Assembly: GCA_017448455.1 (NCBI GenBank)
Contig: JAFSLL010000249.1
Span: 1-32,179, forward strand
Length of the DNA stretch: 32,179 bases
Reading direction: 5' to 3'
DNA from: Oscillospiraceae bacterium
GTDB lineage: Bacteria > Bacillota > Clostridia > Oscillospirales > Oscillospiraceae
Positions 3,512-25,837 of the stretch are shown piece by piece (position 1 is the stretch's first letter; every line of letters begins with the position of its first letter). The notes under the pieces are model-generated. The model ran no database searches. It saw nothing but the letters and a program-made list of their open reading frames with translations, and had not been told where the DNA came from. Both the position numbers and the translations under genes were made by a program.

Positions 3512-3524
3512 CTGCCGCTGCCTT

Positions 3525-3553
3525 TTGACTTTCTCCCCTTGCTATGGTAACAT
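3525..3553 (+). promoter_or_regulatory. Promoter of the first AraC-type regulator gene
   Basis: TTGACT (3525-3530), a 17-base spacer and TAACAT (3548-3553) form a good sigma-A-type promoter between the GH3 stop and the AraC-type start. The regulator can therefore be transcribed independently of GH3. Confidence 0.6.
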
Positions 3554-3573
3554 AAAGAAAACCATACAGGGGG

Positions 3574-4794: not shown

Positions 4795-4818
4795 CAGAAT
4801 TGGCACACCGCTTATAGA
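4791..4818 (+). promoter_or_regulatory. Promoter of the GH2-GH43-araABD operon
   Basis: TTGACA (4791-4796) overlaps the stop codon of the AraC-type gene. After a 16-base spacer comes TATAGA (4813-4818). A start about 7 bases later would place the leader hairpin at 4828-4890 at the very 5' end of the operon mRNA. Confidence 0.65.
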
Positions 4819-4827
4819 ACGCAGAAC

Positions 4828-4895
4828 AGCTCCTCTGTTACTATGATCATGAGAGATTTAAACCTATCCCATGATCATGGAAGAGGAGCTTTTTT
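4828..4895 (+). terminator. Leader hairpin with U-tract before the GH2 gene (terminator or attenuator)
   Basis: The outer arms AGCTCCTCT (4828-4836) and AGAGGAGCT (4882-4890) pair perfectly, and the right arm runs into six T (4890-4895). Inside, two copies of the self-complementary ATGATCAT (4843-4850 and 4871-4878) can pair with each other and extend the stem. It can be read as the terminator of the AraC-type gene. However, the operon promoter lies upstream of it and only 20 bases remain before the GH2 start, so operon transcripts must read through it. That makes attenuation plausible. Confidence 0.65.
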
Positions 4896-4915
4896 ATACC
4901 AGACAGGAGGAGAAC

Positions 4916-7216: not shown

Positions 7217-7229
7217 ATGAGGTGCGTCC

Positions 7230-8657
7230 ATGAAGCAGGTTTTTAATCCCTATCTTCCGCTGTGGGAATACGTTCCCGACGGAGAGCCCCATGTGTTCGG
7301 CGAGCGCGTCTATCTCTACGGCAGTCACGATGCCTTTGGCGGCAAAAAGTTCTGCCCCAATGACTATGTGTGCTGGTCCGCGCCCGTGACCGATTTGACG
7401 GACTGGCGCTATGAGGGCGTAATCTACAGGAAAACACAGGATCCGCGTATGGCCGACGGCGGGCATGAGCTTTGGGCGCCGGACGTGGTGCAGGGCAGGG
7501 ACGGACGTTATTACCTCTACTACTGCCCGGACGATAAAATCAAGTCCATCGGCGTCGCGGTCTGCGACAGCCCGGCCGGACAGTATGTCTTTTACGGTCT
7601 CGTGAAGGACACCGAAGGCGGCGTCCTGGGCGAACGGCCCAGCGACACGATTCAGTTTGACCCCGGCGTGTTTATCGACGACGGGGAGATCTATCTCTAT
7701 TCCGGAAACGGCCCCCGTACCAAAAAGGAAATCGGCAAGGAGCCGAAGGCCTCGGTGGTCATGACCCTCTGCGACGATATGGTGACGCTGAAGACCGAGC
7801 CGAAAAAGCTGCTGCCCCTGCTGGGCGAATCGGAAGGCACAGGCTTCGAGGGCCATGAATTCTTTGAGGCCAGCTCCATCCGCAAGATCGGCGGGCGCTA
7901 TTATCTCGTCTATTCCTCCCTCACCAACCATGAGCTCTGCTATGCCGTGAGTGATCGGCCGGACGGGGACTTTCGCTACGGCGGCGTGATCGTGTCCAAC
8001 TGCGATCTTTTCCCCGGCAAAGAGGGAAAGCCGCTCAACTGCTTCGGCAACAACCACGGCGGGCTGGAGCTGATCAACGGCAAATACTATATCTTCTACC
8101 ACCGGGAGACCAACCGCAGTATCTGCTCCCGTCAGGGCGGCGCGGAAGAGGTCACCATCCTGCCCGACGGCAGCATCCCCCAGGCGGAGCTGACGTCCTG
8201 CGGACTCAACGGCGGACCACTCAAGGCGGAGGGAAGCTTCTCGGCGGGCATCGCCTGCAATCTCTACGGAAAGCTGACGCCCACCTATTCGCACCCCATG
8301 GCCATGATGAACCGTCACCCCTATATCACGCAGGACGGACCGGATTTCGACCCGGAAAAAGGCGGCACGCCGCCCCGGTCATACATTGCCAACGGCAAAG
8401 ACGGCCTTGTCGCGGGCTTCAAGTATTTCGATCTGACTGACGCCGAGCAGATCACGGTGCGCGTGCGCGGCTCGGTCCGGGGCAGGCTGTTTGTCCGCAC
8501 CGATCCCAAGGGGGAAATCCTTGCGGAAATCGGACTTTGCCCCTCCAAAGACTGGAAAGCATACACCGTCTCTCTCGCCCCCTGCGCGGGGACGCATCCG
8601 CTTTATCTCTGCTACGAAGGAAAGGGAAAGCTTGATATTCTGGACTTCTCCTTTTGA
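7230..8657 (+). CDS. GH43 arabinofuranosidase/xylosidase-like hydrolase with C-terminal CBM6-like module
   Basis: A 475-residue five-bladed propeller hydrolase of family 43. The three acidic catalytic positions are visible: Asp17 in PDGEPHVF (base), Asp144 in FDPGVFIDDGEIYLY (pKa modulator) and Glu213 in HEFFEASSIRKIGGRYYLVYSS (general acid). The last about 130 residues (FKYFDLTDAEQITVRVRG...LFVRTDPKGEIL...LDILDFSF) look like a CBM6-type beta-sandwich. There is no signal peptide, so it should act on imported oligosaccharides. It starts 13 bases after the GH2 stop with a GAGGTG ribosome binding site and is followed by araA. Alpha-L-arabinofuranosidase activity that feeds arabinose to AraA is the natural inference; xylosidase activity is the main alternative. 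Confidence 0.88.
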   Translation: MKQVFNPYLPLWEYVPDGEPHVFGERVYLYGSHDAFGGKKFCPNDYVCWSAPVTDLTDWRYEGVIYRKTQDPRMADGGHELWAPDVVQGRDGRYYLYYCPDDKIKSIGVAVCDSPAGQYVFYGLVKDTEGGVLGERPSDTIQFDPGVFIDDGEIYLYSGNGPRTKKEIGKEPKASVVMTLCDDMVTLKTEPKKLLPLLGESEGTGFEGHEFFEASSIRKIGGRYYLVYSSLTNHELCYAVSDRPDGDFRYGGVIVSNCDLFPGKEGKPLNCFGNNHGGLELINGKYYIFYHRETNRSICSRQGGAEEVTILPDGSIPQAELTSCGLNGGPLKAEGSFSAGIACNLYGKLTPTYSHPMAMMNRHPYITQDGPDFDPEKGGTPPRSYIANGKDGLVAGFKYFDLTDAEQITVRVRGSVRGRLFVRTDPKGEILAEIGLCPSKDWKAYTVSLAPCAGTHPLYLCYEGKGKLDILDFSF

Positions 8658-8689
8658 AAAAACATCACATCAGGAAAGGAGTTCACACA

Positions 8690-10156
8690 ATGAAAAAGGT
8701 TGAATTCTGGTTTGTGGTCGGCAGTCAGTTCCTGTACGGCCCGGAGGTTCTGGAGACGGTTGAGACCCGCGCAAAGGAGATGGCGGCAGAACTCTCCAAG
8801 GTGCTGCCGTACCCACTGGTATATAAGGTCACCGCCAAAACCAACAAAGAGATCACCGATGTGGTCAAGGAGGCCAATTACCGCGACGAGTGTGCCGGCA
8901 TCATCACCTGGTGCCACACCTTTTCTCCCAGCAAAATGTGGATCAACGGCCTGGCCAATCTCCAAAAGCCCTACTGCCATCTGGCCACCCAGTACAATAA
9001 AGAGATCCCGAACGACGAGATCGACATGGACTTCATGAACCTGAACCAGGCGGCGCATGGCGACCGGGAGCACGGGTTTATTGGTGCCCGGCTGCGTAAA
9101 CCGCGCAAGGTCGTGGCAGGCTACTGGCAGGATGAGAAGGTCCACAAACGCATTGCAGACTGGATGAAAGCCGCGGTAGGCGTCGCTGTCTCCAAAGAGA
9201 TGAAGGTCATGCGTTTCGGTGACAACATGCGCGAGGTCGCCGTCACCGAAGGCGACAAGGTCGAGGTGCAGACCAAGCTCGGCTGGCAGGTGAACACCTG
9301 GGCCGTGGGCGATCTGGTCAAGGAGATGAACGCCGTCACGGATGAGGAAGTGGACGCCCTCTATAATGAGTATCTGGCAAGCTATGATCTCAATACCGAC
9401 AACACCGCCGCCATCCGTTATCAGGCCCGCGAGGAGATCGCCATGAAGAAGATGCTGGATCGGGAGGGCTGCAAGGCTTTCACGAACACCTTCCAGGATC
9501 TTTACGGTATGGAGCAGCTGCCGGGCCTGGCTTCCCAGCACCTGATGGCCCAGGGCTACGGCTACGGCGGCGAGGGCGACTGGAAGGTCAGCGCCATGAC
9601 CGCTATTCTGAAAGCCATGGGTGAAAACGGTAACGGTTCCTCCGGCTTTATGGAGGACTATACCTATCACCTCGTCGAGGGTCAGGAGTATTCTCTCGGC
9701 GCCCATATGCTGGAGGTCTGCCCGTCTCTGGCAGCAGACAAGCCCCGGATCGAGACCCATCATCTGGGCATCGGTATGAACGAAAAAGACCCCGCCCGTC
9801 TGGTGTTTGAGGGCAAGGCCGGCAGGGGCATCGTGGTTTCCCTGATCGACATGGGCGGCAGACTGCGCCTCATCGTGCAGGACATCGAGGCCGTGAAGCC
9901 CATTATGCCCATGCCGAACCTGCCGGTGGCCCGGGTTATGTGGCGGGCGCTGCCCGATCTCACCACCGGCGTGGAATGCTGGATCACGGCCGGCGGTGCG
10001 CATCACACAGTGCTTTCCTACGACGTGACCGCTGAGCAGATGCGCGACTGGGCACGGATGATGGATATCGAGTTTGTCCACATCGGCGCGGATATGACCC
10101 CCGAGAAGCTGGAAGAGGAACTGCTGGTCAAGGATCTGGTGTGGAAGCTGAAATGA
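8690..10156 (+). CDS. araA: L-arabinose isomerase
   Basis: A 488-residue enzyme converting L-arabinose to L-ribulose in the cytoplasm. The whole protein matches the family: [18 protein letters not shown] at the N-terminus, [57 protein letters not shown] and [23 protein letters not shown]. The manganese ligands are present as Glu295 (GEGDW), Glu322 (FMEDYTYH), His339 ([10 protein letters not shown]) and the GAHHT pair near residue 438. ATG 8690 is preceded by AGGAAAGGAG at a normal distance; an earlier in-frame ATG at 8654 lacks this. It is third in the five-gene operon. Confidence 0.97.
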
Positions 10157-11709
10157 TGAATTTAGAAAAGACCGTATTGGGCATCGAGCTGGGTTCGACC
10201 CGCATTAAGGCCGTTCTCATCGATGAACGGCACGTTCCCGTAGCCCAGGGTGATTTTGAGTGGGAGAACCTGTTGGTGAACGGCGTCTGGACCTACTCCA
10301 TGGACATGGTGCATACCGGCCTGCAGGCCTGTTTTGCCAATCTGCAGGCCGACGTCAAGGCCAAATTCGGCGCGGAGCTGACCACGGTGGGGGCGATCGG
10401 CGTTTCCGCCATGATGCACGGCTATCTGCCCTTCGACAAGGACGGAAAGCAGCTGGCGGAGTTTCGCACCTGGCGCAACACCATTACGGGCGAAGCCGCT
10501 GAGGAGCTGACAGCACTCTTTGGCTTCAACATTCCCCAGCGCTGGAGCATTGCCCACCTGTATCAGTCAATCCTCAACGGCGAGGAGCACGTCAAGGACA
10601 TCGCCTTCCTCACCACGTTGGCGGGGTATATCCACTGGCAGCTGACCGGCGAGAAGGTCATGGGCGTGGGCGAGGCCAGCGGCATGTTTCCCATTGACAG
10701 CGAGAAGCTCGACTACGACGAGGGCATGGTGCAGAAGTTCAAGGCCCTGACGGGCATCGAGCTGCGCGACATTCTTCCGAAGGTCCTGACGGCGGGGCAG
10801 AGCGGCGGAGCTCTCACCGCCGCGGGCGCCCGCTTCCTGGACCCTACCGGCACCCTGCGGCCAGGCATCCCCGTGGCCCCCTGCGAGGGCGACGCGGGCA
10901 CAGGCATGGCCGCGACAAACTCCGTCCGTCCCCGTACAGGCAACGTCTCGGCGGGCACCTCGGACTTTGCCATGATCGTCACCGAAAAGCCCCTGGGTGT
11001 CCACCGGGAGATCGACATGGTCACCACGCCCGACGGCGCGCCGGTCGCCATGGTGCACTGCAACAACTGCACCAGTGACATCAACGCCTGGGTCAATCTC
11101 TTTGCCGAATACTCCGAGATGATGGGTACGCCGGTCAACAAGGGGGAACTCTTTGTTAAGCTCTTCAACAAGGCGCTGGAGGGCGACTCCGACTGCGGCG
11201 GACTTCTCAGCTTCAACTACTTCTCCGGCGAGGGCGTCACCGATCTGGACGAGGGGCGGCCGGCCTTTGCGCGCATGCCCAACGCGAAGTTCACGCTGGC
11301 AAACTTCATGCGAACCCATCTGCTGTCTGCCTTAGCGACGCTCAAGATCGGGCTGGATATCCTGACCCAGACCGAGCAGGTCGCCATCGACAAGCTCTAC
11401 GGCCACGGCGGCTTCTTCAAGACGCCGGTTGTGGGCCAGCGGATGCTGTCTGCTGCGGTGGATGCTCCGGTCTCTGTGATGGAGACGGCGGGCGAGGGCG
11501 GCCCCTACGGCATGGCGCTGCTCTGCGCCTACATGCTTTGGAAGGACGAGGGCGAGACGCTGGCGGATTATCTGGACAACAAGGTTTTTGCCGATGCCAA
11601 GTCCACCACACTTATGGCAGAGCCTTCCGATGTGGCGGGTTTCTCGGTGTTTCTGTCCCGATACAAAAAAGCGCTGCCCATGGAGCGCACTGCAACGGAG
11701 GTGCTCTGA
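10153..11709 (+). CDS. araB: FGGY-family carbohydrate kinase, probably L-ribulokinase
   Basis: A 518-residue sugar kinase of the FGGY/actin-fold family. The phosphate-binding start [17 protein letters not shown], the GTSDFAMIV segment and the C-terminal GHGGFF...[20 protein letters not shown] motif are visible. Its place between araA and araD argues strongly for phosphorylation of L-ribulose to L-ribulose 5-phosphate. The sequence is not the classic E. coli AraB type, so the assignment rests partly on context. The ATG at 10153 overlaps the araA stop codon in an ATGA arrangement, implying translational coupling. A second ATG follows directly at 10156. Confidence 0.85.
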
Positions 11710-14503: not shown

Positions 14504-16141
14504 ATGAAACAGTATGAGACTTTTGAGCTGCGCTTTCAGGGTGAAGCGCTCACAGAGAACTACGCGAACATTCCGCTGGACGCCACCTTTACCTGCGACG
14601 GCAAAACGACAGCGGTCAAAGGTTTTTATGACGGCGATGGGCAGTACGTCGCCCGCTTTTTCCCCGAGCAGGCCGGGGAATACCACTGGGCAGTCAGCGG
14701 CTGCATTGCGGCCGAGGGGAACGAGAGCTGTGAAGAGGCGGCAGAAGACGCGCACGGCCTGGTGAAAGCGGTCGACACCCATTTCGAATTTGAAGACGGG
14801 AAGCTGTATATTCCCTTCGGTACCACGGTCTATGCCCTCGCGCACCAGGATGACGACCTGACAGAGCAGACTCTGGCCACTCTGAAAACCGCGCCGTTCA
14901 ACAAGCTGCGCATGTGTGTGTTCCCGAAAGACTATGACTACAACCACAACGAGCCGCCCTGCTACGCGTTTGAAAAGAAAGCGAACGGAAGCTGGGATGT
15001 CAGCCGCCCCTGCATCGCCTTCTGGCAGCGCTTTGAAACCATCCTCGACCGGATCACCGCAATGGGCATCCAGGTCGATCTGATCCTGTTCCATCCCTAT
15101 GACCGCTGGGGCTTTGACACGCTTTCCCAGCGGGAAAACCTGGTCTATCTGGATTATCTGCTGCGCCGTCTCGCCGCGAAGCCGGGGATCTGGTGGTCGC
15201 TTGCCAATGAGTATGACCTCAGCCGCGGCAAGTCGCTGGCCGACTGGGAAGAGATTGAGGAATTTGTCGCCGCTCATGATCCCTATGGGCATCTGCTGTC
15301 CTGTCACAACTGCATCTGCTTCTGGGATGCCAGCCGTCCGAACATCACCCACGCCAGCCTGCAGGTGAAAGGGCTCAGTGCTGTTCCGCGCTGGCTGGAA
15401 CGGTACGGAAAGCCTGTCATGATTGACGAGTGCTGCTATGAGGGTGACCTTCCCCATTTCTGGGGCAGCATCTCCGCCAGGGAGATGGTGAACCGGTTCT
15501 GGCGCAGCTGCGCGGGAGGCGGCTACTGCACGCACGGGGAAACCTTCCTGGATGACAGAGAGGTCCTCTGGTGGGCGAAAGGCGGGGTTCTCAAAGGGAA
15601 GAGCCCGCGGCGCATTGCCTTCCTGCGGGAGATTATGGAATCTCTGCCCGGCCCGCTGCAGCCGGCCGAAGGAGGCATGATTCAGCTCATGCAGATGTCG
15701 GATTCTGAAGTGCAGGAAGTGCTGAAACCGCTCCCGGAAGCAGAGAGATCCATCGCTTCCGAGATCGTCAAGAGCGCCAGACGTATGGACGCATGCGACC
15801 GGGAGATTCTGCTCAGTGGGGAACATGAGTATGCCTCTCACTGCGATGAGGAAGCTTACCTGTGGTTTAACGACCTGCAGTGCCTTGGCATCCAGACCCT
15901 GCAGCTGCCGAAAGATAAGCAGTATCGCGTCGAGTGCATTGATACCTGGGAAATGACCCGGCTGCTGGTTGCCGACAAAGCCAGCGGAACGACAACAATC
16001 CGCCTCCCGGTCAAGGAAGGCCTTGCCGTTCTTGCGACAAGAATACAATCAGAAACCCATCATAGCTGTAAAATCTTTTATCCCCCGGGCATATTCTGCC
16101 CGGGGGATAAAAGATCATGGAGCGCTATACAGCGCCTTTAA
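14504..16141 (+). CDS. Clan GH-A glycoside hydrolase with DUF5060, DUF4038-like and DUF5605 domains
   Basis: A 545-residue protein. The N-terminal 80 residues form a DUF5060-type Ig-like domain (FYDGDGQYVARFFPEQAGEYHWAVSG). A TIM barrel follows (GKLYIPFGTTVYALAHQ, NKLRMCVFPKDYDYNHNEPP, IQVDLILFHPYDRWGFD). Likely catalytic glutamates are Glu236 in WSLANEYDL (acid/base) and Glu309 in PVMIDECCYEG (nucleophile). A DUF5605-like C-terminal beta domain comes last (about 440-515). No signal peptide is seen, so it is probably cytoplasmic. The last about 25 residues are encoded by a 19-bp inverted repeat and do not look like a natural domain end. The start has AAGGAG 7 bases upstream. The stop overlaps the convergent regulator gene by 3-4 bases. 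Substrate is unknown; apiosidase-like or other plant glycoside activity is possible. Confidence 0.8.
   Translation: MKQYETFELRFQGEALTENYANIPLDATFTCDGKTTAVKGFYDGDGQYVARFFPEQAGEYHWAVSGCIAAEGNESCEEAAEDAHGLVKAVDTHFEFEDGKLYIPFGTTVYALAHQDDDLTEQTLATLKTAPFNKLRMCVFPKDYDYNHNEPPCYAFEKKANGSWDVSRPCIAFWQRFETILDRITAMGIQVDLILFHPYDRWGFDTLSQRENLVYLDYLLRRLAAKPGIWWSLANEYDLSRGKSLADWEEIEEFVAAHDPYGHLLSCHNCICFWDASRPNITHASLQVKGLSAVPRWLERYGKPVMIDECCYEGDLPHFWGSISAREMVNRFWRSCAGGGYCTHGETFLDDREVLWWAKGGVLKGKSPRRIAFLREIMESLPGPLQPAEGGMIQLMQMSDSEVQEVLKPLPEAERSIASEIVKSARRMDACDREILLSGEHEYASHCDEEAYLWFNDLQCLGIQTLQLPKDKQYRVECIDTWEMTRLLVADKASGTTTIRLPVKEGLAVLATRIQSETHHSCKIFYPPGIFCPGDKRSWSAIQRL
16073..16115. repeat. Perfect 19-bp inverted repeat (strong hairpin) inside the hydrolase 3' end
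   Basis: The arms at 16073-16091 and 16097-16115 are perfectly complementary around a TATTC loop, with a CCCCCGGGCA core. It lies between the expected end of the hydrolase and the end of the convergent regulator gene, so it may act as a bidirectional transcription stop. The stem has T on its 5' side and A on its 3' side on both strands, the opposite of a canonical terminator. Confidence 0.75.
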
Positions 16142-17334
16142 ATATCCACTTCCTGCTTGCGGAATGTGTCGCGATAGGTTTTCGGCGTCACATTTTTCAG
16201 CTTCCTGAAAATCTTACCCATATAGCTCTGATTGGGAAAACCCACATAAACGGCGATTTCAGACAGTGACAGCTCGGAATAGAGCAGCAGGTTGGCAGCG
16301 CGGAAAACGCGCTCTTCGTTGATCGCGTCCTGAAGACAACCTCCGGTTTCCTGCTTAAACATCCGGGAGAGATAGCTGGGACTGAGACCGATGGTCTCGG
16401 CCATATTCTCCAGATAAATCTTTTCCCGATAGTGCTTCCGAATGTAGTCTCTGGCTTTCTCCGCATAGCCGACAGACTGCGGTTTATTAAGCTTTTCCTG
16501 AACCCGCCCGGTCAGTTCCTCAATCGCCCGGTTGCGATGGTGCAGTATATGAGCCGGATCATGGGCCTCATCGCACTTCTGAATATAGTAGCCGCTGATT
16601 CGATAGGCGGAGGTGGGGGGGACACCCGCTTCAATGGCAGCACGCGAGCAGAGTGTGATCGCTACAATCGCGAGATTACGCCGATGCCGGAGATCGACAT
16701 CGGATAGGCGTCCGGTATCCCGGTCCATGCTCTCCGAAATACGGATCGCGTCTTCTGTGCGGCCTTCCCGGACAGCCTGGAGCACCAGCTGTTCCTCATG
16801 ATAGCTGTGCCGATAGGCTGCATCATCGTTCTCTTCTTCCTCTTTCATGACAAACCGGAGCATTTCCCGCTTTGCCTGCTTCTCGTCCCGATTGATGATT
16901 CGGTTGAGCTGCAGCAGCTCTTCATTTTCCAGGCTTGCATTCTCTATCACCGTATTGGTCAGCAGGATCATATTTCTGATCTCCGGCAGTGTGAAGACAG
17001 GCAAAACCCGGATACTGTCGCTTCGGATGCCATAGCGCGCGTACATCTGTTTCCTCTGAGCGGCGTTCAGCCTCTGATGAGCCATCGGCCCCATGAGCAA
17101 AAAACCGCGCTCACAGCGAATCGCCGCATAATAACAATCCTGCTCATCATGCCAGAGAAACGGAGCTGTCTGTCCCTGTGCCCCTTCCCGCAGAATGCGG
17201 CGGAGATGATCCGACTGCATCAGCGGACTTTCGTCTGCGTTGTCGAAGAACGCAGTCAGACTGCCGTCTCCTTCCTCATACACCAGATCCACCTTGATCA
17301 CGCTGCATAGAATTCTGACATGATTTTCCCTCAT
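16138..17334 (-). CDS. AraC-family transcriptional regulator
   Basis: A 398-residue regulator with the AraC/XylS DNA-binding domain in the last about 100 residues (YIRKHYREKIYLENMAETIGLSPSYLSRMFKQETGG, then LSEIAVYVGFPNQSYMGKIFRKLKNVTPKTYRDTF). The N-terminal part is a putative effector-binding region with CERGFLLMGPMAHQ. The middle contains a helical stretch AIVAITLCSRAAIEAGVPPTSAYRISGYYI, parallel to that of the regulator at 3574-4794. ATG 17334 has GGGAGGG 8 bases upstream. It is divergent from the DUF3237-hydrolase-esterase genes, and the intergenic space carries a bipartite element repeated before the symporter at 20810. That makes it the likely activator of both units. Confidence 0.9.
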   Translation of the reverse strand: MRENHVRILCSVIKVDLVYEEGDGSLTAFFDNADESPLMQSDHLRRILREGAQGQTAPFLWHDEQDCYYAAIRCERGFLLMGPMAHQRLNAAQRKQMYARYGIRSDSIRVLPVFTLPEIRNMILLTNTVIENASLENEELLQLNRIINRDEKQAKREMLRFVMKEEEENDDAAYRHSYHEEQLVLQAVREGRTEDAIRISESMDRDTGRLSDVDLRHRRNLAIVAITLCSRAAIEAGVPPTSAYRISGYYIQKCDEAHDPAHILHHRNRAIEELTGRVQEKLNKPQSVGYAEKARDYIRKHYREKIYLENMAETIGLSPSYLSRMFKQETGGCLQDAINEERVFRAANLLLYSELSLSEIAVYVGFPNQSYMGKIFRKLKNVTPKTYRDTFRKQEVDI

Positions 17335-17384
17335 TGCGGCATCCCTCCCATATCAATATAGCATCCCCTATTGAAAAACGCAAG

Positions 17385-17441
17385 ATAAGAGCAAAAGAAA
17401 CAAAATAAGAATATAGAAGGGCGATCATCCTGTCGTATAAT
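17385..17441 (+). promoter_or_regulatory. Bipartite regulatory element (copy 1) and promoter of the DUF3237 operon
   Basis: ATAAGAGCAAAA (17385-17396), eight bases, then ATAAGAATATAGA (17405-17417). The two ATAAGA half-sites are 20 bases apart, about two helical turns, as expected for AraC-type direct repeats. TATAAT (17436-17441) follows, with no good -35, so activator dependence is likely. A copy with identical spacing lies at 20689-20721. Confidence 0.65.
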
Positions 17442-17461
17442 GCAATCAAAATGGAGGCGCG

Positions 17462-17914
17462 ATGTTCATGAGTGAACCGATTATGATTTTTAAGGTAACT
17501 GCAAACCCGGAGGATTGTACCAGCATGATGTGCGCCTACGGCGGCGTCAGCTTTATTCCCTTCACGGCGACTGTTGAATCAGAGCTGTTCAGCGGAAAAA
17601 CAGTTCCCGGCGCCTGCGACGTGCAGGTGGAAAACCCCGCCGGCAGCCGGAACATGTGCGCAAAATACATGTTCCGTGGGACGGATTGTGCCGGCAACGG
17701 CTGCTTCCTTTTTGTGGAAAACAACGGATACCTGGCCGAAGTCATGCGCCACGATCCCTTTTTCCATGCATACCCCAGATTTATGACGGATTCCCCTGTT
17801 CTGGGAGAATACCTGAGTCAGCAGCGCTTCCGATCGGAAGTGCAGGGGCGCGACTGGGGGGTCGAGATCCGGATCTACGATGTTCTGAAAGAAGGAGAGG
17901 AAAAAGATGCATGA
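17462..17914 (+). CDS. DUF3237-like protein of unknown function
   Basis: A 150-residue soluble protein with a beta-rich pattern: YGGVSFIPFTATVESELFSGKTVPGACDVQVENPAGSRNMCAKYMFRGTDCAGNGCFLFVENNGYLAEV...FMTDSPVLGEYLSQQRFRSEVQGRDWGVEIRIYDVL. This matches the general layout of DUF3237 proteins, predicted beta-barrels found beside sugar and aromatic catabolic genes, without an established biochemical role. GGAGG lies 4 bases before ATG 17462 and 10 bases before ATG 17468; either could be the start. It overlaps the next gene by 8 bases, so the two are translationally coupled. A ligand-binding or accessory role in the breakdown of the same substrate is an inference from position. Confidence 0.7.
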   Translation: MFMSEPIMIFKVTANPEDCTSMMCAYGGVSFIPFTATVESELFSGKTVPGACDVQVENPAGSRNMCAKYMFRGTDCAGNGCFLFVENNGYLAEVMRHDPFFHAYPRFMTDSPVLGEYLSQQRFRSEVQGRDWGVEIRIYDVLKEGEEKDA

Positions 17915-19109
17915 GCGTTTTTTCGGCGTCGGCGAGCCGCTGATCCAGCGGCAGCGGGATCAGGGGATCGACGCCCCCGCCTATCTTGACCTGGTGAAAG
18001 GGCTCGGCTGCAACGCGTTCCGAACCTGGATGCATCTGACGGAGCTTCTGACCGACCCGGTAACGCCGAACCCGAATGAGGTCAGGAAGCATACGGCACT
18101 GCTGAACCGCGCTGCCGAGCTCGACATCGAAGTAACCGCCATGAGCCACGAGTGGTTCCTGCCGGCAGGCTGCAGACAGCGGACAGGCCATGCCATGCCC
18201 ACGCGCGACCTCACACCCGGCAGCCTCTACATGCAGGCATTGGAAATGCTGGAACAGAGCTGGTATACCATGGTCTCCCTGTTCCCGCAGGTGCGGATCT
18301 GGGAAATCGGAAACGAGTGGAACCTCAACGCCTTCCTGCATCCGGACGGCTTTCTGGAATCCGATATGTCGGCCCCCTTTACGGCAGACGAGAAGATGGA
18401 TATCGCCGTAGACATGATGTATTTCGCGGCGCGCGGCGTTCGGCGGGCAAATCCAAAGGCTCTGGTCGCGTCCTTCTCCCCGGCTCTTTCCACCCCCGGC
18501 CTCGGCGGCGACATGCCGGATTACCTGCCGGTGATGTACGGTGTCGCCTGGACACTGGATAAAGTGTACAGCCGTATCAAAAGCGGTAACTTCTGGTCGA
18601 CAGATACCGACGACTACTTTGACCTTGTCGCCTGGCACCCCTATGTGTTTACCAACCGGCCCAGTTCGGACGCAGACCTCTTCCTTGACGTGGACGAACC
18701 GGATCAGCTCTGGCAGAGCTACAACGACGCAGCCTACAGGGTCATGCAGAAGTACGGCGACGGGCACAGGCAGGTGCTTTTAACAGAATCCGGATTTACC
18801 GACTGCGGCAATCCCGAGTGGGAAAAGCGATACGCCGGCTACAACAAAAAGATGCTGGAAATCGCGGCGAAACTGCCATACGTCCGGACACTGCACAATT
18901 TCCGCCTTCTCAATGAGAATTCCATGCTCCGCCGCGGCGGCATCGAGCAGAACCAGATCGGCGGGCTCACAGAAGTCTATTTCGGCATTTTCACCGATCC
19001 CGAAGATGGCTGCCGCCCCCGGGCGCGCGCCTATGCCATCCAGGAAATGACCGCCAGCACAGCAGATTTGAAAGCTCTTGGCGCGAAACTCGCGCAAACA
19101 GTTAATTAA
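17907..19109 (+). CDS. Unclassified clan GH-A-like glycoside hydrolase
   Basis: A 400-residue predicted TIM-barrel protein. It has the paired glutamates of retaining clan GH-A enzymes: Glu137 in IWEIGNEWNLNAF (acid/base, at the end of strand 4) and Glu294 in VLLTESGFTD (nucleophile, strand 7). Other barrel-like stretches are GLGCNAFRTWMHL, DIEVTAMSHEWF and DYFDLVAWHPYVFTNRP. I do not recognise a specific family; it is most like GH5/GH39-type proteins. No signal peptide is seen. The start has GGAGAGG 6 bases upstream and overlaps the end of the DUF3237 gene. It is followed 13 bases later by a carboxylesterase gene, which suggests an acylated glycoside or oligosaccharide as substrate. Confidence 0.75.
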   Translation: MHERFFGVGEPLIQRQRDQGIDAPAYLDLVKGLGCNAFRTWMHLTELLTDPVTPNPNEVRKHTALLNRAAELDIEVTAMSHEWFLPAGCRQRTGHAMPTRDLTPGSLYMQALEMLEQSWYTMVSLFPQVRIWEIGNEWNLNAFLHPDGFLESDMSAPFTADEKMDIAVDMMYFAARGVRRANPKALVASFSPALSTPGLGGDMPDYLPVMYGVAWTLDKVYSRIKSGNFWSTDTDDYFDLVAWHPYVFTNRPSSDADLFLDVDEPDQLWQSYNDAAYRVMQKYGDGHRQVLLTESGFTDCGNPEWEKRYAGYNKKMLEIAAKLPYVRTLHNFRLLNENSMLRRGGIEQNQIGGLTEVYFGIFTDPEDGCRPRARAYAIQEMTASTADLKALGAKLAQTVN

Positions 19110-19122
19110 GGGAGGATTCATC

Positions 19123-20682
19123 ATGGCAGAACATCTGGTAAAAACAACGTCCGGTACCGTGCGCGGCGTGGAGCGCGAAGGCCGGATCGACTACCTCGGC
19201 ATTCCCTATGCCCAGCCGCCTGTCGGTGAGCTGCGCTTTAAGCGCTCGATCCCCGTCATTCCCTGGGAGGGCGTCCGTGACGCGACAGCTTACGGCCATT
19301 CTCCGGTCCAGTACAACAACGGTATTGTCATGGGGGATGAAGACTGTCTCACCGTCAATGTACAGCGTCCCCTGGAAGGGGACAGACTGCCGGTCTTTGT
19401 CTGGATCTACGGCGGCGGTTACAACACCGGCTACTCCTCGGACGAGATGTATACCGGCGAGGCCTTCGTCCGTGACGGCGTACTGTTCTTTTCCTTCAAC
19501 TACCGTACCAATATCCTTGGCTTCTATGATTTTACCACCTATCCCGGCTGTGAGGACTTCGATTCCAACTGCGGCCTCAGCGACCAGATCCTGGCGCTGA
19601 ACTGGATCCGGGAAAATGTGGAAGCCTTCGGCGGAGACCCGGAACGCATCACCATTGCAGGCGAATCCGCGGGCGGGGCATCTGTCACCAACATGCTGGT
19701 CTGCCCCGGCGTCAGGGGCTGCTTCACGCAGGCCATCATCGAAAGCGGTCTGCCCAACTGCGTCATGACGCATGAGCTGGCCCGTGAAAACATCGACCTC
19801 TTCCTGGAGGGGATGCACTGGACGGAAAAGGATCTGCCCCTGCTGCGCACGATGGATCCGCATCTCTTCCTGCTGGGTCACGAGTATGTGCAGGCCAAAC
19901 ACCAGTATAAGAACCCCGGTATGTTTCTGCCCGGTCCGGTGCTTGACGATCTGCTGCCCGTGCGCCCCATTGACGCGCTGCGCGCCGGGGCCGCCGAAGG
20001 CATTAAGCTGATCATCGGAACCAACATGCATGAAGGAACGATGTTTGTCCATCCGGAGAACACCGGCTTCCCCAACTCGTGGGCAATGATCGCGCAGATG
20101 ATGGAAAAAAACGGCAATGCCGACGCGCTGCCCAAGATTATCGGCTTCTACCATGAGGATGGCAGAGACTACTTCAGTTTCTTCAAAGATTCCGCCGTCT
20201 CGATGTCCAGCTCCATTCCTCCGATGACCGGTGATATCCGGCAGATCGGCGGGGACGCCTTTATCCGCTTCGCCACGGATTACGCCTTTGAAATGCCCTC
20301 CGTCAAAGTCGCTGATGCGCAGCGGCGATTCACACCGGATGTCTGGATGTACCGCTATGAGCTGGTGACCAAATCCGGTATCGAAACCGGCTGGAAGGCC
20401 AGCCATGCCTTCGAGCTGCCCTTTGTCTTCGAAAAGCCGGATCATCCCTTTACTCATTTCGAGTTTGACGGAGAGTCGGAGGAGCTCTTCCGGGAGATGG
20501 CTTCTCAGATTCACGGCGACTGGGTCCGCTTTGTCAGGACCGGCGAGCCCAACCCCGACTGGGGCCGCTTCGAGGGGGCCAATTCGCCCGTGCGCATCTA
20601 CGATCGGGAGACGCATACCGAGCAGCTTGACCGCCGCCACCTGATGCAGATCTGGGGCGATCTGCGGTTTTATGAAAAATAA
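19123..20682 (+). CDS. Type-B carboxylesterase (alpha/beta hydrolase)
   Basis: A 519-residue carboxylesterase of the cholinesterase-like family, which hydrolyses carboxylic esters. Visible features are the N-terminal signature FLGIPYAQPP-like (YLGIPYAQPPVGELRFKRS), EDCLTVNVQRP, the oxyanion segment WIYGGGYNTGYSS, and the nucleophile Ser182 in AGESAGGAS. The late histidine motif ASHAFELPFVF is also present. No signal peptide is seen, so it probably acts in the cytoplasm. ATG 19123 has GGGAGG 7 bases upstream; an in-frame ATG at 19078 lies inside the preceding gene and has no such site. With the preceding hydrolase it may deacylate an imported ester-decorated glycoside (acetyl, feruloyl or similar); this is inference. 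Confidence 0.9.
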   Translation: MAEHLVKTTSGTVRGVEREGRIDYLGIPYAQPPVGELRFKRSIPVIPWEGVRDATAYGHSPVQYNNGIVMGDEDCLTVNVQRPLEGDRLPVFVWIYGGGYNTGYSSDEMYTGEAFVRDGVLFFSFNYRTNILGFYDFTTYPGCEDFDSNCGLSDQILALNWIRENVEAFGGDPERITIAGESAGGASVTNMLVCPGVRGCFTQAIIESGLPNCVMTHELARENIDLFLEGMHWTEKDLPLLRTMDPHLFLLGHEYVQAKHQYKNPGMFLPGPVLDDLLPVRPIDALRAGAAEGIKLIIGTNMHEGTMFVHPENTGFPNSWAMIAQMMEKNGNADALPKIIGFYHEDGRDYFSFFKDSAVSMSSSIPPMTGDIRQIGGDAFIRFATDYAFEMPSVKVADAQRRFTPDVWMYRYELVTKSGIETGWKASHAFELPFVFEKPDHPFTHFEFDGESEELFREMASQIHGDWVRFVRTGEPNPDWGRFEGANSPVRIYDRETHTEQLDRRHLMQIWGDLRFYEK

Positions 20683-20688
20683 AGCAAA

Positions 20689-20744
20689 ATAAGAACAAAA
20701 ACAGCATAATGAGAATATAGAGAATTCGAATAATCTCCTATTCT
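20689..20744 (+). promoter_or_regulatory. Bipartite regulatory element (copy 2) and promoter of the symporter gene
   Basis: ATAAGAACAAAA (20689-20700), eight bases, then ATGAGAATATAGA (20709-20721). It matches copy 1 at 17385 at 23 of 25 defined positions with the same spacing. A possible -10 TATTCT (20739-20744) lies at nearly the same distance as in copy 1. The element begins 7 bases after the esterase stop, so the symporter gene has its own regulated promoter. Confidence 0.6.
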
Positions 20745-20809: not shown

Positions 20810-22216
20810 ATGTTCGCAACAAAACATGACGATCCCAATGGTTCCCTTGGGTGGGGAGAACGCTTATCCTACGGTGTTGGTGGTTTTTCGTTCAACATGA
20901 TCAATGGTATTATCGGTTCTTTCCTGACGATCTATTTCACCAGCGCAGTCGGTCTGAACGCCGGTATTATCGCAACAATCCTCGCGGTTTCCAAAGTATT
21001 TGACGGTATCTCGGATCTCGTGATGGGCCGTATCGTTGACAAAACCCATCACAAAATGGGTAAGGCCAGGATCTGGCTGCTCAGAATGTGCATCCCCTTT
21101 GCGGTTACGACGATGCTTCTCTTCTTCGTCCCGCAGAACTGGCCGTCTCTCGCACAGTACATTTATGTTTTCCTGATGTACAACATTGTCAATGCTGTCT
21201 GCCTGACCGGTGTTCTGGTTCCGTTCTATTCTCTGGTTGCCCTTGAAACCGCCAACCCCTATGAGAGAGGTCTTCTCGGCAATATCCAGCAGATCTTCCA
21301 GACACTCGGCAACGTGGTTGTCAACTCCACCTTCGTCGTCCTGCTCGGCAAGTTCACCAGCAGCACGGAGACGCTTTACACGCAGCGCGGCTTCACCCTG
21401 ACCATGCTCGTCTACTGCGCCGTCATGGTGATCGTCTGCCTGTTCTGTGTATTCAACACCAAAGAGCGCGTAAAGGAAGTAGAGAAGAAAGAAATATCCG
21501 AGGAAGAGAAACAGAAAAACAAGGAAAACTTCGGTGTTACGGTTAAGGCTCTGCTCAAGAATCAGTATTGGCTCCTGCTGACACTCGGCAACTTTGTGGT
21601 ATTCACCATCATTATCTTCTACGCCATGGGCACAGTTTTCTACAGCCAGTATGTACTGTATGATATGGGCCAGTACGCGATGCTTTCCAATGCCATCTCC
21701 ATTGCTCAGTTCGCCATCATGTTTGTCACGCCGATCATGATGAAGAAAATCTCCAAGGAAAAGATCTATACTTTCGGTATGCTGGTTATGGCCATCGGCT
21801 TCCTCGGATCGGCCATGTTCACCTCCCACGGCATCCTGCTTGTCAGCAACGTACTGAAAGGTCTTGGTGTCGGCCTCTGCGGCGGTATGGCACTGGGCAT
21901 GGTCGCTGACAGCGTTACCTACGGCAAGCTTAAGACCGGCGTTGACACGGTCGGCATGGGCAACGCGGGCATCTCTGCCGCCCAGAAGATCGGCCTCGGC
22001 CTGGGTCAGGCAATCTTCGGCTGGGTTCTCGCCGGTGCCGGACTGAATGCCGCTCTCGATGCGCAGGGTCTGCCTCAGCCGGAGTCCGTTTCCATCGCCA
22101 TCAAATTCCTCTATGGCTGGGTCCCGGCCATCATGGCGGGCGCCATGTTCGTCATCATGCTTCTGTTCTATCACTGTGAGAGAGACATCCAGAGACTCGA
22201 ACAGAATGCCGCCTGA
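20810..22216 (+). CDS. GPH-family glycoside/pentoside/hexuronide:cation symporter
   Basis: A 468-residue membrane transporter of the major facilitator superfamily with about 12 spans. The N-terminal block (GWGERLSYGVGGFSFNMINGIIGSFLTIYFTSAVGLNAGIIATILAVSKVFDGISDLVMGRIVDKT) carries the typical GPH signature. A charged central cytoplasmic loop (KERVKEVEKKEISEEEKQKNKENFGVTVKALLKNQYW) separates the two halves. It should import a sugar or glycoside with Na+ or H+. Its promoter shares the bipartite element with the DUF3237-hydrolase-esterase unit, so it probably brings in their substrate. GAAGGAGAG precedes the start at normal spacing. Confidence 0.93.
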   Translation: MFATKHDDPNGSLGWGERLSYGVGGFSFNMINGIIGSFLTIYFTSAVGLNAGIIATILAVSKVFDGISDLVMGRIVDKTHHKMGKARIWLLRMCIPFAVTTMLLFFVPQNWPSLAQYIYVFLMYNIVNAVCLTGVLVPFYSLVALETANPYERGLLGNIQQIFQTLGNVVVNSTFVVLLGKFTSSTETLYTQRGFTLTMLVYCAVMVIVCLFCVFNTKERVKEVEKKEISEEEKQKNKENFGVTVKALLKNQYWLLLTLGNFVVFTIIIFYAMGTVFYSQYVLYDMGQYAMLSNAISIAQFAIMFVTPIMMKKISKEKIYTFGMLVMAIGFLGSAMFTSHGILLVSNVLKGLGVGLCGGMALGMVADSVTYGKLKTGVDTVGMGNAGISAAQKIGLGLGQAIFGWVLAGAGLNAALDAQGLPQPESVSIAIKFLYGWVPAIMAGAMFVIMLLFYHCERDIQRLEQNAA

Positions 22217-22239
22217 TCAAACAAGCATATCCACGGATT

Positions 22240-22270
22240 ACGCTTAGGCAGATTCACCCTGCCTAAGCGT
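22240..22270 (+). terminator. Hairpin after the symporter gene (weak terminator)
   Basis: A perfect 12-bp inverted repeat (ACGCTTAGGCAG / CTGCCTAAGCGT) with a 7-base loop, followed only by TCTAAT rather than a T-run. It ends 22 bases before the rhamnosidase pseudogene start. Confidence 0.7.
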
Positions 22271-22292
22271 TCTAATATGGGAGGGAACGGCA

Positions 22293-23380
22293 ATGCATGC
22301 ATATGACCTTACAACAGAGCACATGAGCAATCCCATAGGTCTTGATGTACAGCACCCTCGGCTGTCGTGGAAGTGCGCGGACGGCATTCGGCAGACCGCA
22401 TACCACATTCACGCCGCAGAATCGGAATGGGACCTGGCCAACGGAAAGCTGCTGTGGAACAGCGGCGAAATCCCTTCCGATGAAAGCCTCCACATCGAAT
22501 ACGGCGGCGACACACTCGGAACCGGAGACCGCGTCTTCTGGCAGGTACGGCTGAAGGATGAACAGGGACGTTGGGGAGCGTGGTCGGAAAGCGCTTTCTT
22601 TGAAATGGGACTTTTGGGTGCGGATGCCCAGAAGGCGGAGTGGATCAATCCTGAAAAAGAGTATGATCCGGATTCCGAGCCGCCCGTCAGCCTTCTCCGC
22701 AGAGAATTCCCTCTGGAGAGCGGATTTCTGCGTGCCCGGCTCTATGTCTCTGCCCTTGGCATGTACAAGGCGTATCTCAACGGCAAAGTCGTCGGGGACG
22801 AAGTTCTTGCCCCCGGTTTTACAGATATGGAGCGCCGCAGACAGTACCAGACCTACGACGTGACCAAACTCCTCCATGCCGGTGCGAACGCGGCAGGCCT
22901 TGCGCTTGCTGACGGCTGGGCACGGGGCAGGCTTGGCTTCAGCGGGAAGCGAAACCAGTTCTCTCTGGGCATCGCGGCATGGGCGCAGCTTGTTGTCGAT
23001 TATCCCGAACGCAGGGAAATCGCGCTGATTACCGACACTTCCTGGAAAGCGACGCGGTGAAGCAGGCCTGGTTCCGCCGCTTTACCGACAATGGGCTGAT
23101 TCACGGCGGCAGCCGGCAGTGTCTTTATGTTCGGCCGCTGGCGCTCCGGCTTTTGCCGGCAGAGGCAGCGCAGCGGGCTGCGGACCAGCTGAACGGCATT
23201 GTGGAAGCAAACCGGTATCGGATCGGCACAGGTTTCCTGTCGACTCCGTTTCTGTGTGAAGTGCTGACCCGGGGCGGCCATACGGAAACGGCATACAGGA
23301 CGCTGCTCAACTCGCGTCGTGTGCGCCTGCCAGGATTCCCACGCAGCTCAGGACTGTTAAACACGCTCTCTTTGACCTGA
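22293..23380 (+). pseudogene. Alpha-L-rhamnosidase (GH78) remnant with internal and 3' deletions
   Basis: The first 255 codons (22293-23060) encode the normal GH78 N-terminal region (NPIGLDVQHPRLSWKC, FWQVRLKDEQGRWGAWSESAFFEMG, ARLYVSALGMYKAYLNGKVVGDEVLAPGFTDMERRRQYQTYDVT) and end at TDTSWKATR and a stop. Immediately after, in another frame (about 23050-23310), comes late catalytic-domain sequence (DNGLIHGGSRQCLYVRPLALRLLPAEAAQRAA...GTGFLSTPFLCEVLTRGGHTETAYRTLLN), which then loses homology. The central catalytic barrel and the C-terminal domain are missing. GGGAGGG precedes the ATG, so a 255-residue fragment might still be made. It is not the same subtype as the intact rhamnosidase next to it. 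Confidence 0.85.
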
Positions 23381-23488: not shown

Positions 23489-25837
23489 ATGGATATGAGC
23501 CTGTTTATGACCAACTGGATCTGGACACCGGACTGGACAGCGGAAGACCGGCTGGAGACGCGGATTGTTTATTTCCGCAGATGCTTTACGCTGGCGTCTC
23601 TTCCGGGATCCAAGAAGATCCGCGTCACCGCGGACTCCCGCTACAAGCTGTATGTCAACGGCAGATTTGTGCAGAAAGGGCCTCAGAAAGCGATCGACCT
23701 TCGGGAGTGGTATGTCGACACGGCGGAGCTCTCCTCCTTCCTTTGCTCGGGTGAGAACGTAATTGCCGTGGAGGTGCTGCGCTATCCCGCCTTCAATCCT
23801 TCCGCAGGCAGCCCGAATGCCAATGATTCCCTGCTGCACACCGAGATTCCCCATCTCTATGTGGAGGATCTGGATCCGGATGCCGTTCCCTCCCTGAATG
23901 GGAAGACGGGATGGAAATGCCGTGTCGACCGGGACAGGCGGATAATCGGAGAGGATGCCCGCCCCGCGCCGATCCACGCGCAGGAAGACGTGCTTGCCTC
24001 TGCGGAATTCGCCGGCTGGAAGCAGCCGGGGTATGATGACGCCGCCTGGGCGGATGCCGCACCAAAGCTCTTCTTCGACGTGCCGCAGGCGGACGCGCCG
24101 GGAAACCTTGTCCCGCGGATGATTCCGCCGATGGCCTATGAGGAAAAGCGTTTTGACAGCGTCTCCGCCGTGAGAGAAGGAACTGCCGGAAAGGATGCCT
24201 GGCAGGCACTGATCGGAAAGGATGAGCCGCTCACCATTCCGCCGCGGGCGGTCCAGGTGGTCGAATTATCCGCCGGAGAAGAGGAATGCGGGTACCTGCT
24301 TTATCGGTTCGCCGGCGGCAGCGGCGCGAAGATCTCCACGCTCTGTTCGGAGTGCTATGCCTACCCGCAGCCTCCGGTCCGCGGGGCTTATGGCGAAATG
24401 CAGCAGCCCGCGCCCCTGAAGGGGGACCGCACCGACGCGGAGAACGGCCAGCTTCTGGGACACACCTCCCGTTACACGGTTTCCGGTTACGGCAGTGCGG
24501 AAAGCGCGGAAGAATACGAACCCTTCTGGTTCCGGACCTTCCGCTATGTACAGCTGAAGATAGAGACCGCGGATGAACCGCTCACGCTTCTCCGTTTCGC
24601 CTACCGCGCCACCGGCTACCCGCTGGAGGTAAAAACCGGCTTCTCCGTCTCCGACCCCAGTTTCGCTCCGATCTGGGATATCAGCGTGCGCACGCTCAGG
24701 CGCTGCATGCACGAGACCTATATGGACTGCCCCTTCTATGAGCAGCTCCAGTACGCTATGGACGGGCGCAACGAGATCCTTTATACCTACAGCGTCAGCG
24801 CGGATGACCGGCTGGCCAGGCAGGCGATGGAAGCGTTTCGCCGTTCTCAGCGGCCGGACGGGCTGGTAAACTGCGACGCTCCCACCGTCGGGAGCAATGT
24901 CATTCCCGGTTTCTCCATCTACTATCTCCTGATGGTGCATGACCATATGATGTATTTCGGTGATCCGGCCTGGGTCAGACAGCATCTTCCGGCGATCGAC
25001 GGTATCCTCTCATTTTTCGACCGGCATCTCAATGACCTGGGCATGGTCGGCAAAGTCGGCGGCAAGCTCATGCGCGATCGCTACTGGTCCTTCATCGACT
25101 GGACGAGCAAATGGGATACCGGCGTTCCCGGTGCCGGCGATCAGGGCTGCGGATCCATCACGATGGAGAGCCTGCTGTACCTCTACGGTCTGCAGCATGC
25201 CGCAGATCTGGCGGATTATGTCGGGCGCGCCGGTATGGCTGAGGAATACCGTGACCGCGCCGCCGCGCTGAAGACCGCAGTCCGTTCAAGCTGTATGGGA
25301 AGCCGCAGCGGTCATCCCCTGATCCAGGACGGTCCCGGTGTGGACGAATACTCTGTCCACAGCCAGGTCTTTGCCATTCTCACCGGACTTGTCAGTCCGG
25401 AGGAAGGCCGGGCAATGCTGGAAGCAACAGTCGGCGATCCCGCGCTTCCGCAGGCCTCCGTCGCTTTTGCCTTCTATCTCTTCCGTGCTCTGGAAGAATG
25501 CGGCTGGTATGAAAAAACAGATGAGCTCTGGGAGCTCTGGCGCCGGATGCTTCGCGATAACATGACCACCTGTGTGGAAAACGACACCGACGCCCGTTCC
25601 GACTGCCATGCGTGGGCATCCCTGATGTGCTATGAACTGCCCGCAGTCATGCTCGGCGTCCGTCCCGCCTCGCCCGGATTCCAAACCGTAAAGCTCTCCC
25701 CGCAGATGGGAAAACTCACCGAAGCAAAGGGAGAAGTCATCACCCCGAAGGGAACGGTATCCGTCGAATGGAAAAGAGGCGAAGACGGTGCCTGCGTTCT
25801 GAACTTCAGGCTTCCGGAAGGCATGAACCGCGCCTGA
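23489..25837 (+). CDS. GH78-like alpha-L-rhamnosidase
   Basis: A 782-residue, apparently intact and cytoplasmic rhamnosidase-type enzyme. N-terminal beta-sandwich domains (FRRCFTLASLPGSKKIRVTADSRYKLYVNGRFVQKGP, then ENVIAVEVLRY) precede a six-hairpin (alpha/alpha)6 barrel. The barrel starts near FRTFRYVQLKIE and contains ETYMDCPFYEQLQYAMDGRNEILY, the counterpart of the acidic DCP-x-x-E-Q motif that carries the general acid in GH78. The C-terminal beta domain (DCHAWASLMCYELPAVMLGVRPASPGFQTVKLSP) is complete. It should remove terminal L-rhamnose from plant glycosides or rhamnogalacturonan fragments. It has its own promoter and a good ribosome binding site (GAGGAG, 8 bases). Confidence 0.87.
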   Translation: MDMSLFMTNWIWTPDWTAEDRLETRIVYFRRCFTLASLPGSKKIRVTADSRYKLYVNGRFVQKGPQKAIDLREWYVDTAELSSFLCSGENVIAVEVLRYPAFNPSAGSPNANDSLLHTEIPHLYVEDLDPDAVPSLNGKTGWKCRVDRDRRIIGEDARPAPIHAQEDVLASAEFAGWKQPGYDDAAWADAAPKLFFDVPQADAPGNLVPRMIPPMAYEEKRFDSVSAVREGTAGKDAWQALIGKDEPLTIPPRAVQVVELSAGEEECGYLLYRFAGGSGAKISTLCSECYAYPQPPVRGAYGEMQQPAPLKGDRTDAENGQLLGHTSRYTVSGYGSAESAEEYEPFWFRTFRYVQLKIETADEPLTLLRFAYRATGYPLEVKTGFSVSDPSFAPIWDISVRTLRRCMHETYMDCPFYEQLQYAMDGRNEILYTYSVSADDRLARQAMEAFRRSQRPDGLVNCDAPTVGSNVIPGFSIYYLLMVHDHMMYFGDPAWVRQHLPAIDGILSFFDRHLNDLGMVGKVGGKLMRDRYWSFIDWTSKWDTGVPGAGDQGCGSITMESLLYLYGLQHAADLADYVGRAGMAEEYRDRAAALKTAVRSSCMGSRSGHPLIQDGPGVDEYSVHSQVFAILTGLVSPEEGRAMLEATVGDPALPQASVAFAFYLFRALEECGWYEKTDELWELWRRMLRDNMTTCVENDTDARSDCHAWASLMCYELPAVMLGVRPASPGFQTVKLSPQMGKLTEAKGEVITPKGTVSVEWKRGEDGACVLNFRLPEGMNRA

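Follow-up and report, generated by a model that had tools for sequence, protein, structure and literature searches.

Paired direct-repeat elements as probable operators of an AraC-family regulator in a rhamnosidase-bearing gene cluster of Clostridia

Results

Two direct repeats at an AraC-type locus

The window analyzed here, that is, the whole stretch of 32,179 nucleotides of contig JAFSLL010000249.1 (assembly GCA_017448455.1) from an Oscillospiraceae bacterium, contains two near-identical bipartite elements that we take as candidate operators of an AraC-family protein encoded beside the first of them. This copy lies between the minus-strand gene of the regulator (398 residues, 16138..17334) and a divergent plus-strand unit encoding a DUF3237-like protein (17462..17914, start possibly at 17468; Pfam DUF3237, 20.7 bits, cut-off 24), a hydrolase-like protein (17907..19109) and a type-B carboxylesterase (19123..20682; COesterase, 3.7e-89). 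The second copy precedes the plus-strand gene of a GPH-family sugar symporter (20810..22216; MFS_2, 2.4e-71; TIGR00792, 238 bits, cut-off 231.35). Profile searches and the gene layout agree in all these points with the initial annotation.

The regulator has a clear AraC-type helix-turn-helix (HTH) region (HTH_18, 1.4e-18, 67.4 bits, cut-off 33.6; HTH_AraC, 2.8e-12, 46.9 bits, cut-off 26.6), preceded by an N-terminal part of about 290 residues with no Pfam match. A comparison with PDB sequences gave 27 at E<=1e-5, nearly all covering the C-terminal HTH region. Thirty-nine related proteins align with the regulator at 39-74% identity, and across the resulting alignment of 40 proteins there is hardly any variation in the region of the second recognition helix, FPxQSYFGK, which agrees with a single conserved operator.

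The elements were initially placed at 17385-17417 and 20689-20721, with equal internal spacing and nearly equal distances to a -10. Both match their joint pattern without mismatches at these positions, and the repeat period is exactly 20 bp in each (17385/17405 and 20689/20709). The start, however, had to be moved four bases upstream (CAAG/CAAA). Operator 1 therefore spans 17381..17415 (+), with direct half-sites at 17381-17397 and 17401-17415, and operator 2 spans 20685..20719 (+), with half-sites at 20685-20701 and 20705-20719. Conservation runs on 3' of the element as far as the -10 and a CA dinucleotide. The -10 of the DUF3237-hydrolase-esterase promoter is TATAAT (17436-17441, +), one base beyond the register of the family, and that of the GPH promoter is TATTCT (20739-20744, +), in register; the register and -10 counts over 81 sites predict transcription starts at about 17448 and 20751, respectively. 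The joint pattern was absent from 100 dinucleotide shuffles of the window, and in the whole 3.5 Mb assembly (completeness 91.85%, contamination 7.29%) it was found, with up to three mismatches, at these two places only, while the backwards pattern gave no match. A chance repeat is ruled out by these shuffles and by this uniqueness.

Conservation at related loci

For comparison, we used 102 genomes of the genus, including that of the window. The hydrolase is present in 11 of them, the window's own counted, and a full-length AraC orthologue occurs in the same 11, with 62-74% identity in the ten relatives. The first seven relatives share the order AraC gene, divergent rhamnosidase, DUF3237 (sometimes), hydrolase, esterase and GPH-type symporter, the last two being scored only where the contig extends that far; the eighth locus fetched (G030) holds only a fragment of the AraC gene. 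The 25-position motif of the initial annotation is kept at at least 18 of 25 positions in six of the seven relatives, and a three-mismatch match to it was found in G091. A matrix built from the first matches located two or three strong sites per genus locus, pointing toward the targets.

A matrix of 35 columns was then trained on 20 sites from the window and the seven genus loci (eight genomes) and applied to the best 80 of 91 confirmed relatives, obtained by scanning species genomes with the hydrolase alignment. Rumen and gut are the origin of many of these 80 loci (1.18 Mb combined), which are labelled mostly as Lachnospiraceae and other Clostridia and include a complete Blautia parvula. They contain 100 sites of at least 20 bits, 98 of them on the hydrolase strand, against one for the reversed matrix and none in a one-strand Markov shuffle. 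Six of the training loci recur among the 80 and contribute 15 of the 100 sites; in addition, the two site sequences of L064 are those of L062, one of these six. In 60 of the 80 loci, a site of at least 20 bits lies within 400 bp 5' of a cluster gene. The element precedes the DUF3237/hydrolase, GPH and often the rhamnosidase genes of related clusters in constant orientation. A scan of IMG/VR with the exact consensus found no match.

Anatomy of the element and promoter register

In 81 non-redundant sites, the first half-site (columns 1-17) reads CAAAATAARRAYAAAAA and the second (columns 21-35) reads CAAAATAANRATATA, with base-specific conservation of C at columns 1 and 21 and of TAA at columns 6-8 and 26-28. 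The 20-bp spacing was recovered with a half-site matrix that assumes no spacing. Once the nine genus records are set aside, 71 loci remain, and in these the same-strand pairs of half-sites are exactly 20 bp apart in 65 of 84 cases; relaxing the cut-off gives 70 of 104. Downstream columns that were not used in finding the sites are conserved as well, namely T52 (43/81), G53 (51/81), T55 (74/81), A56 (73/81) and T60 (72/81), and we read them as an extended -10 (TGnTAnnnT) located 19 bp past the operator; C66 (54/81) and A67 (57/81) are the likely transcription start. The in-register -10 agrees with TATAAT in at least four of six bases at 62 of the 81 sites, against 7.0 expected from shuffles, and a -35 of at least 4/6 at spacers of 16-18 is found at three. 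By this register, the place of the -35 falls on columns 32-37, where the proximal half-site ends. The elements show in this way the AraC/XylS trait of a direct repeat of about two helical turns (20-bp period) with its proximal half over the -35, and the layout, as read from the alignment, is that of a class II AraC-type activator site.

In 19 divergent cases, the distance from the operator start to the AraC start codon is 42-54 bp in eight and 72-185 bp in eleven; in the former eight, the araC promoter must overlap or abut the operator. A weak candidate for this promoter in the window is TTGCGT-17-TATATT on the minus strand (17355..17383; 8/12 consensus matches), absent from the output of a stricter scan; its -35 runs into the distal edge of operator 1.

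Co-occurrence with the AraC-type gene

Occurrence of the element in the genus is far from random. A sequence-only model of 59 sites (R1), run over the 102 genomes, scored operator 1 at E 4.0e-7 and operator 2 at 7.7e-8, both being in its training set, and gave 27 matches at E<1e-5, all of them in the 11 genomes with the full-length AraC orthologue and two of them in the window's own. Twenty-six lie in the cluster. The remaining one, which has the best score and is absent from every training set, lies on another contig of G045 and precedes a second GPH gene, 60% identical to that of the window. None was found in the other 91 genomes, and this silence is independent evidence. Weak matches (E 0.0017-0.05) numbered 21; 19 come from genomes that lack a full-length AraC orthologue and are taken as chance, and the other two are in G137 and in G050, the latter before the rhamnosidase gene of that genome. 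In the complete Blautia parvula genome (6.2 Mb), the only two R1 matches at E<=0.001 are both within the cluster, and the genomes of three site-free loci gave none at that threshold. A weak second match in G142 (C22; E 7.3e-4) received 10.8 bits from the 35-column matrix, too few for us to call it a site.

Among the 80 hydrolase loci, a linked AraC gene goes with a site of at least 15 bits in 55 of 57 cases, whereas loci lacking such a gene carry a site in 10 of 23 (Fisher, 3e-7), or 47/49 vs 7/15 when near-identical loci are merged (5e-5); at 20 bits or more, the counts are 52/57 vs 8/23 (6e-7) and, merged, 44/49 vs 6/15 (2e-4). For the ten loci having a site and no linked gene, a related AraC protein is encoded elsewhere in nine of the genomes (identity 36-59%, partial matches among them), whereas none of the six site-free genomes searched has one at E<=1e-40. 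This cut-off was set in view of the scores of about 1e-31 to 1e-34 that more distant AraC relatives had given in another search; the site-free, AraC-free loci L082, L083, L084, L088, L089, L091 and L125 lay outside this comparison. Calculated by hand, the probability of nine of ten against none of six is 10/11440, or 0.0009. A generic AraC-type site is ruled out by 11 loci of AraC paralogues (28-38% identity) that have no site, the best score being 6.8 bits. The motif, in short, is kept at orthologous loci and tracks the AraC gene, linked or unlinked, which supports the proposal of the initial annotation that the elements define a regulon of this regulator.

Fragments homologous to the C-terminal part of AraC (69-75% identity) were seen at L040 (G030) and L160 (G138). 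The hydrolase was not found in these two genomes, and at the truncated AraC loci no operator was found, with no site above 0 bits; the fragments are probably relics left by loss of the cluster.

Other features of the window

The DUF3237 protein of the window is 85% identical to the copy in a Mogibacterium-labelled metagenome-assembled genome (MAG; L124) and 33-39% identical to those in clusters of its own genus, a pattern that we read as gene exchange beneath a conserved operator. Neither Pfam nor NCBIfam nor the PDB sequences gave a match to the hydrolase-like protein; it is 83-88% identical to its counterparts in 10 other genomes of the genus, and its relatives in the best 80 of 91 loci are 63-88% identical over the best segment. 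Its GNEWN and TESGF stretches presumably resemble those of clan GH-A glycosidases, and the protein possibly represents an unclassified glycosidase family.

Downstream of the GPH gene, an alpha-L-rhamnosidase (Bac_rhamnosid6H and _C) is encoded at 23489..25837 (+), in synteny with related clusters. This longer gene is preceded by rhamnosidase remnants at 22293-23380 (+), with N-terminal domains at 22293-23060 and part of the catalytic domain, in a different frame, at 22979-23380, which look like a decayed gene. A strong 12-bp hairpin (22240-22270, +; z -3.64 over 22217-22292) with only a weak T tail separates the GPH gene from the one that follows; it is a possible partial terminator or processing site. 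A second sugar-use cluster (842-11709) comprises GH3, an AraC-type regulator (3574-4794), GH2, GH43, L-arabinose isomerase and FGGY kinase.

Discussion

We are confident, short of certainty, that both elements are operators of the AraC-family protein encoded at 16138-17334, and that this protein acts as a local activator of transcription. Each operator offers two half-sites in the same direction every 20 bp, CAAAATAARRAYAAAAA and then CAAAATAANRATATA, such that two DNA-binding domains would share one face of the helix, and the proximal half-site would cover the -35 position. As the promoters have an extended -10 and no clear -35, RNA polymerase should need the bound protein, as in class II activation; the replacement of the -35 box by the operator is also the reason why we expect the target units to be activated and not repressed. 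The N-terminal part would sense an inducer, and this would turn on the GPH symporter along with the DUF3237-hydrolase-esterase unit. The rhamnosidases and the symporter point to rhamnosides, and the inducer is probably a rhamnoside or its breakdown product. Since the distal half-site of operator 1 abuts what may be the divergent araC promoter, autoregulation is plausible, and the protein might hold down its own synthesis.

Several observations weigh against or qualify this assignment. The rhamnosidase genes of the window lack an operator of their own, and their relatives in some clusters have one. Of the 57 loci where the AraC gene is linked, two fall short of 15 bits (L058, 14.3; L070, 13.6) and five short of 20 bits. 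L065 (G155), on a 4-kb contig of a draft MAG, has a site with no AraC orthologue found, and three of the nine unlinked AraC matches, at no more than 36-40% identity, may be cousins instead of orthologues. The R1 training set draws, among other sources, on nine of the 11 genomes of the genus that carry sites, that of the window among them (G021 and G137 are outside, the latter close to G101), such that the strong matches in these genomes are mostly non-independent of training. Finally, the site-free loci represent few lineages and hence fewer independent losses, and the P-values overstate independence.

A different regulator could bind the repeats, for instance a second AraC-type protein or a two-component regulator whose gene lies elsewhere, although we consider it improbable. 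Binding by the 16138-17334 protein is deduced from sequence comparison, the second cluster of the window has an AraC-type gene of its own, and more distant AraC relatives are present in these genomes. However, the sites follow this group of AraC proteins, linked and unlinked, the 11 loci of more distant relatives carry none, and a tblastn search with the 3574 protein beside the seven related genus clusters matched only the AraC gene of the 16138-17334 type. There is even less to recommend the idea that the repeats are UP elements or bent DNA boosting a constitutive promoter: the element is A-rich, has phased A-tracts and ends 19 bp 5' of the -10, but the conservation of the C and TAA columns, the 20-bp spacing and the lack of matches at E<1e-5 in 91 of the 102 genus genomes, i.e., the restriction to 11, rule out an UP element alone. 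That a promoter segment was duplicated recently and the similarity has no regulatory meaning is hardly credible, near identical as the two copies of the window are, since they differ beyond the element and in their spacers, and the element recurs with varied flanks in many lineages and before several gene types, as a phylogenetic footprint does.

Beyond the window, sites L124:1295, L124:5088 and L080:6507 precede genes for an old-yellow-enzyme-type flavoenzyme (L124 and L080) and a Gfo/Idh/MocA dehydrogenase (L124), which are likely further members of the regulon; as a guess, they hint at a modified or phenolic rhamnoside. The gut-bacterial genes fronted by this signal probably degrade rhamnose-bearing plant compounds. 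With more reserve, we suggest as a possibility that we would not yet favor that one AraC-operator pair, recognizable down to about 40% protein identity, runs an unrecognized catabolism of rhamnose-bearing plant esters or phenolics in many gut and rumen Clostridia. If true, the regulon would comprise the unclassified hydrolase family, the carboxylesterase, DUF3237, the GPH symporter and rhamnosidases, plus the flavoenzyme and the dehydrogenase in some genomes. It is a testable regulon, common to many uncultured rumen and gut Clostridia and Blautia parvula, and the operator can be used as bait for further genes of the pathway, as it has already yielded the second symporter, the flavoenzyme and the dehydrogenase, helping to narrow the substrate.

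The arrangement is reminiscent of Escherichia coli AraC at araI1-I2, where direct half-sites with a period of about 21 bp are found, the proximal one over the -35, next to a divergent regulator gene. Unlike that system, the one described here has a 20-bp period and differs in half-site sequence, N-terminal part and targets. The best NCBIfam match of the regulator is TIGR04094, the YSIRK-adjacent AraC regulator, over residues 18-388 of 398; at 111.9 bits against a cut-off of 200, it falls outside that family, and it also stays below the cut-offs of the enterobacterial rhamnose regulators RhaS (48 bits, cut-off 288) and RhaR (34.1 bits, cut-off 363), which it matches in the HTH part only. AraC-family rhamnose regulators have been predicted in Bacillales, Bacteroides and Enterococcus, each group with a unique direct-repeat motif of 21-bp period (Rodionova et al., 2013; PMC3870299). 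As presented in the section of that paper on these regulators, they resemble ours in being local AraC-family proteins with a group-specific direct-repeat motif and a tie to rhamnose genes. The differences lie in the period, 20 bp here vs 21 bp there (a distinction drawn from the description and not from the motif letters), in the lineages of that section, which do not include Clostridia, and in the targets, here a rhamnosidase-esterase-symporter cluster. The initial annotation had called the operator previously undescribed; no description of this operator or its regulon was found in the literature searched, but direct-repeat operators of AraC proteins, with a 21-bp period in published cases, are a known type. 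What we propose is a device of known kind that appears well supported by comparison; its period is 20 bp and its lineage a different one.

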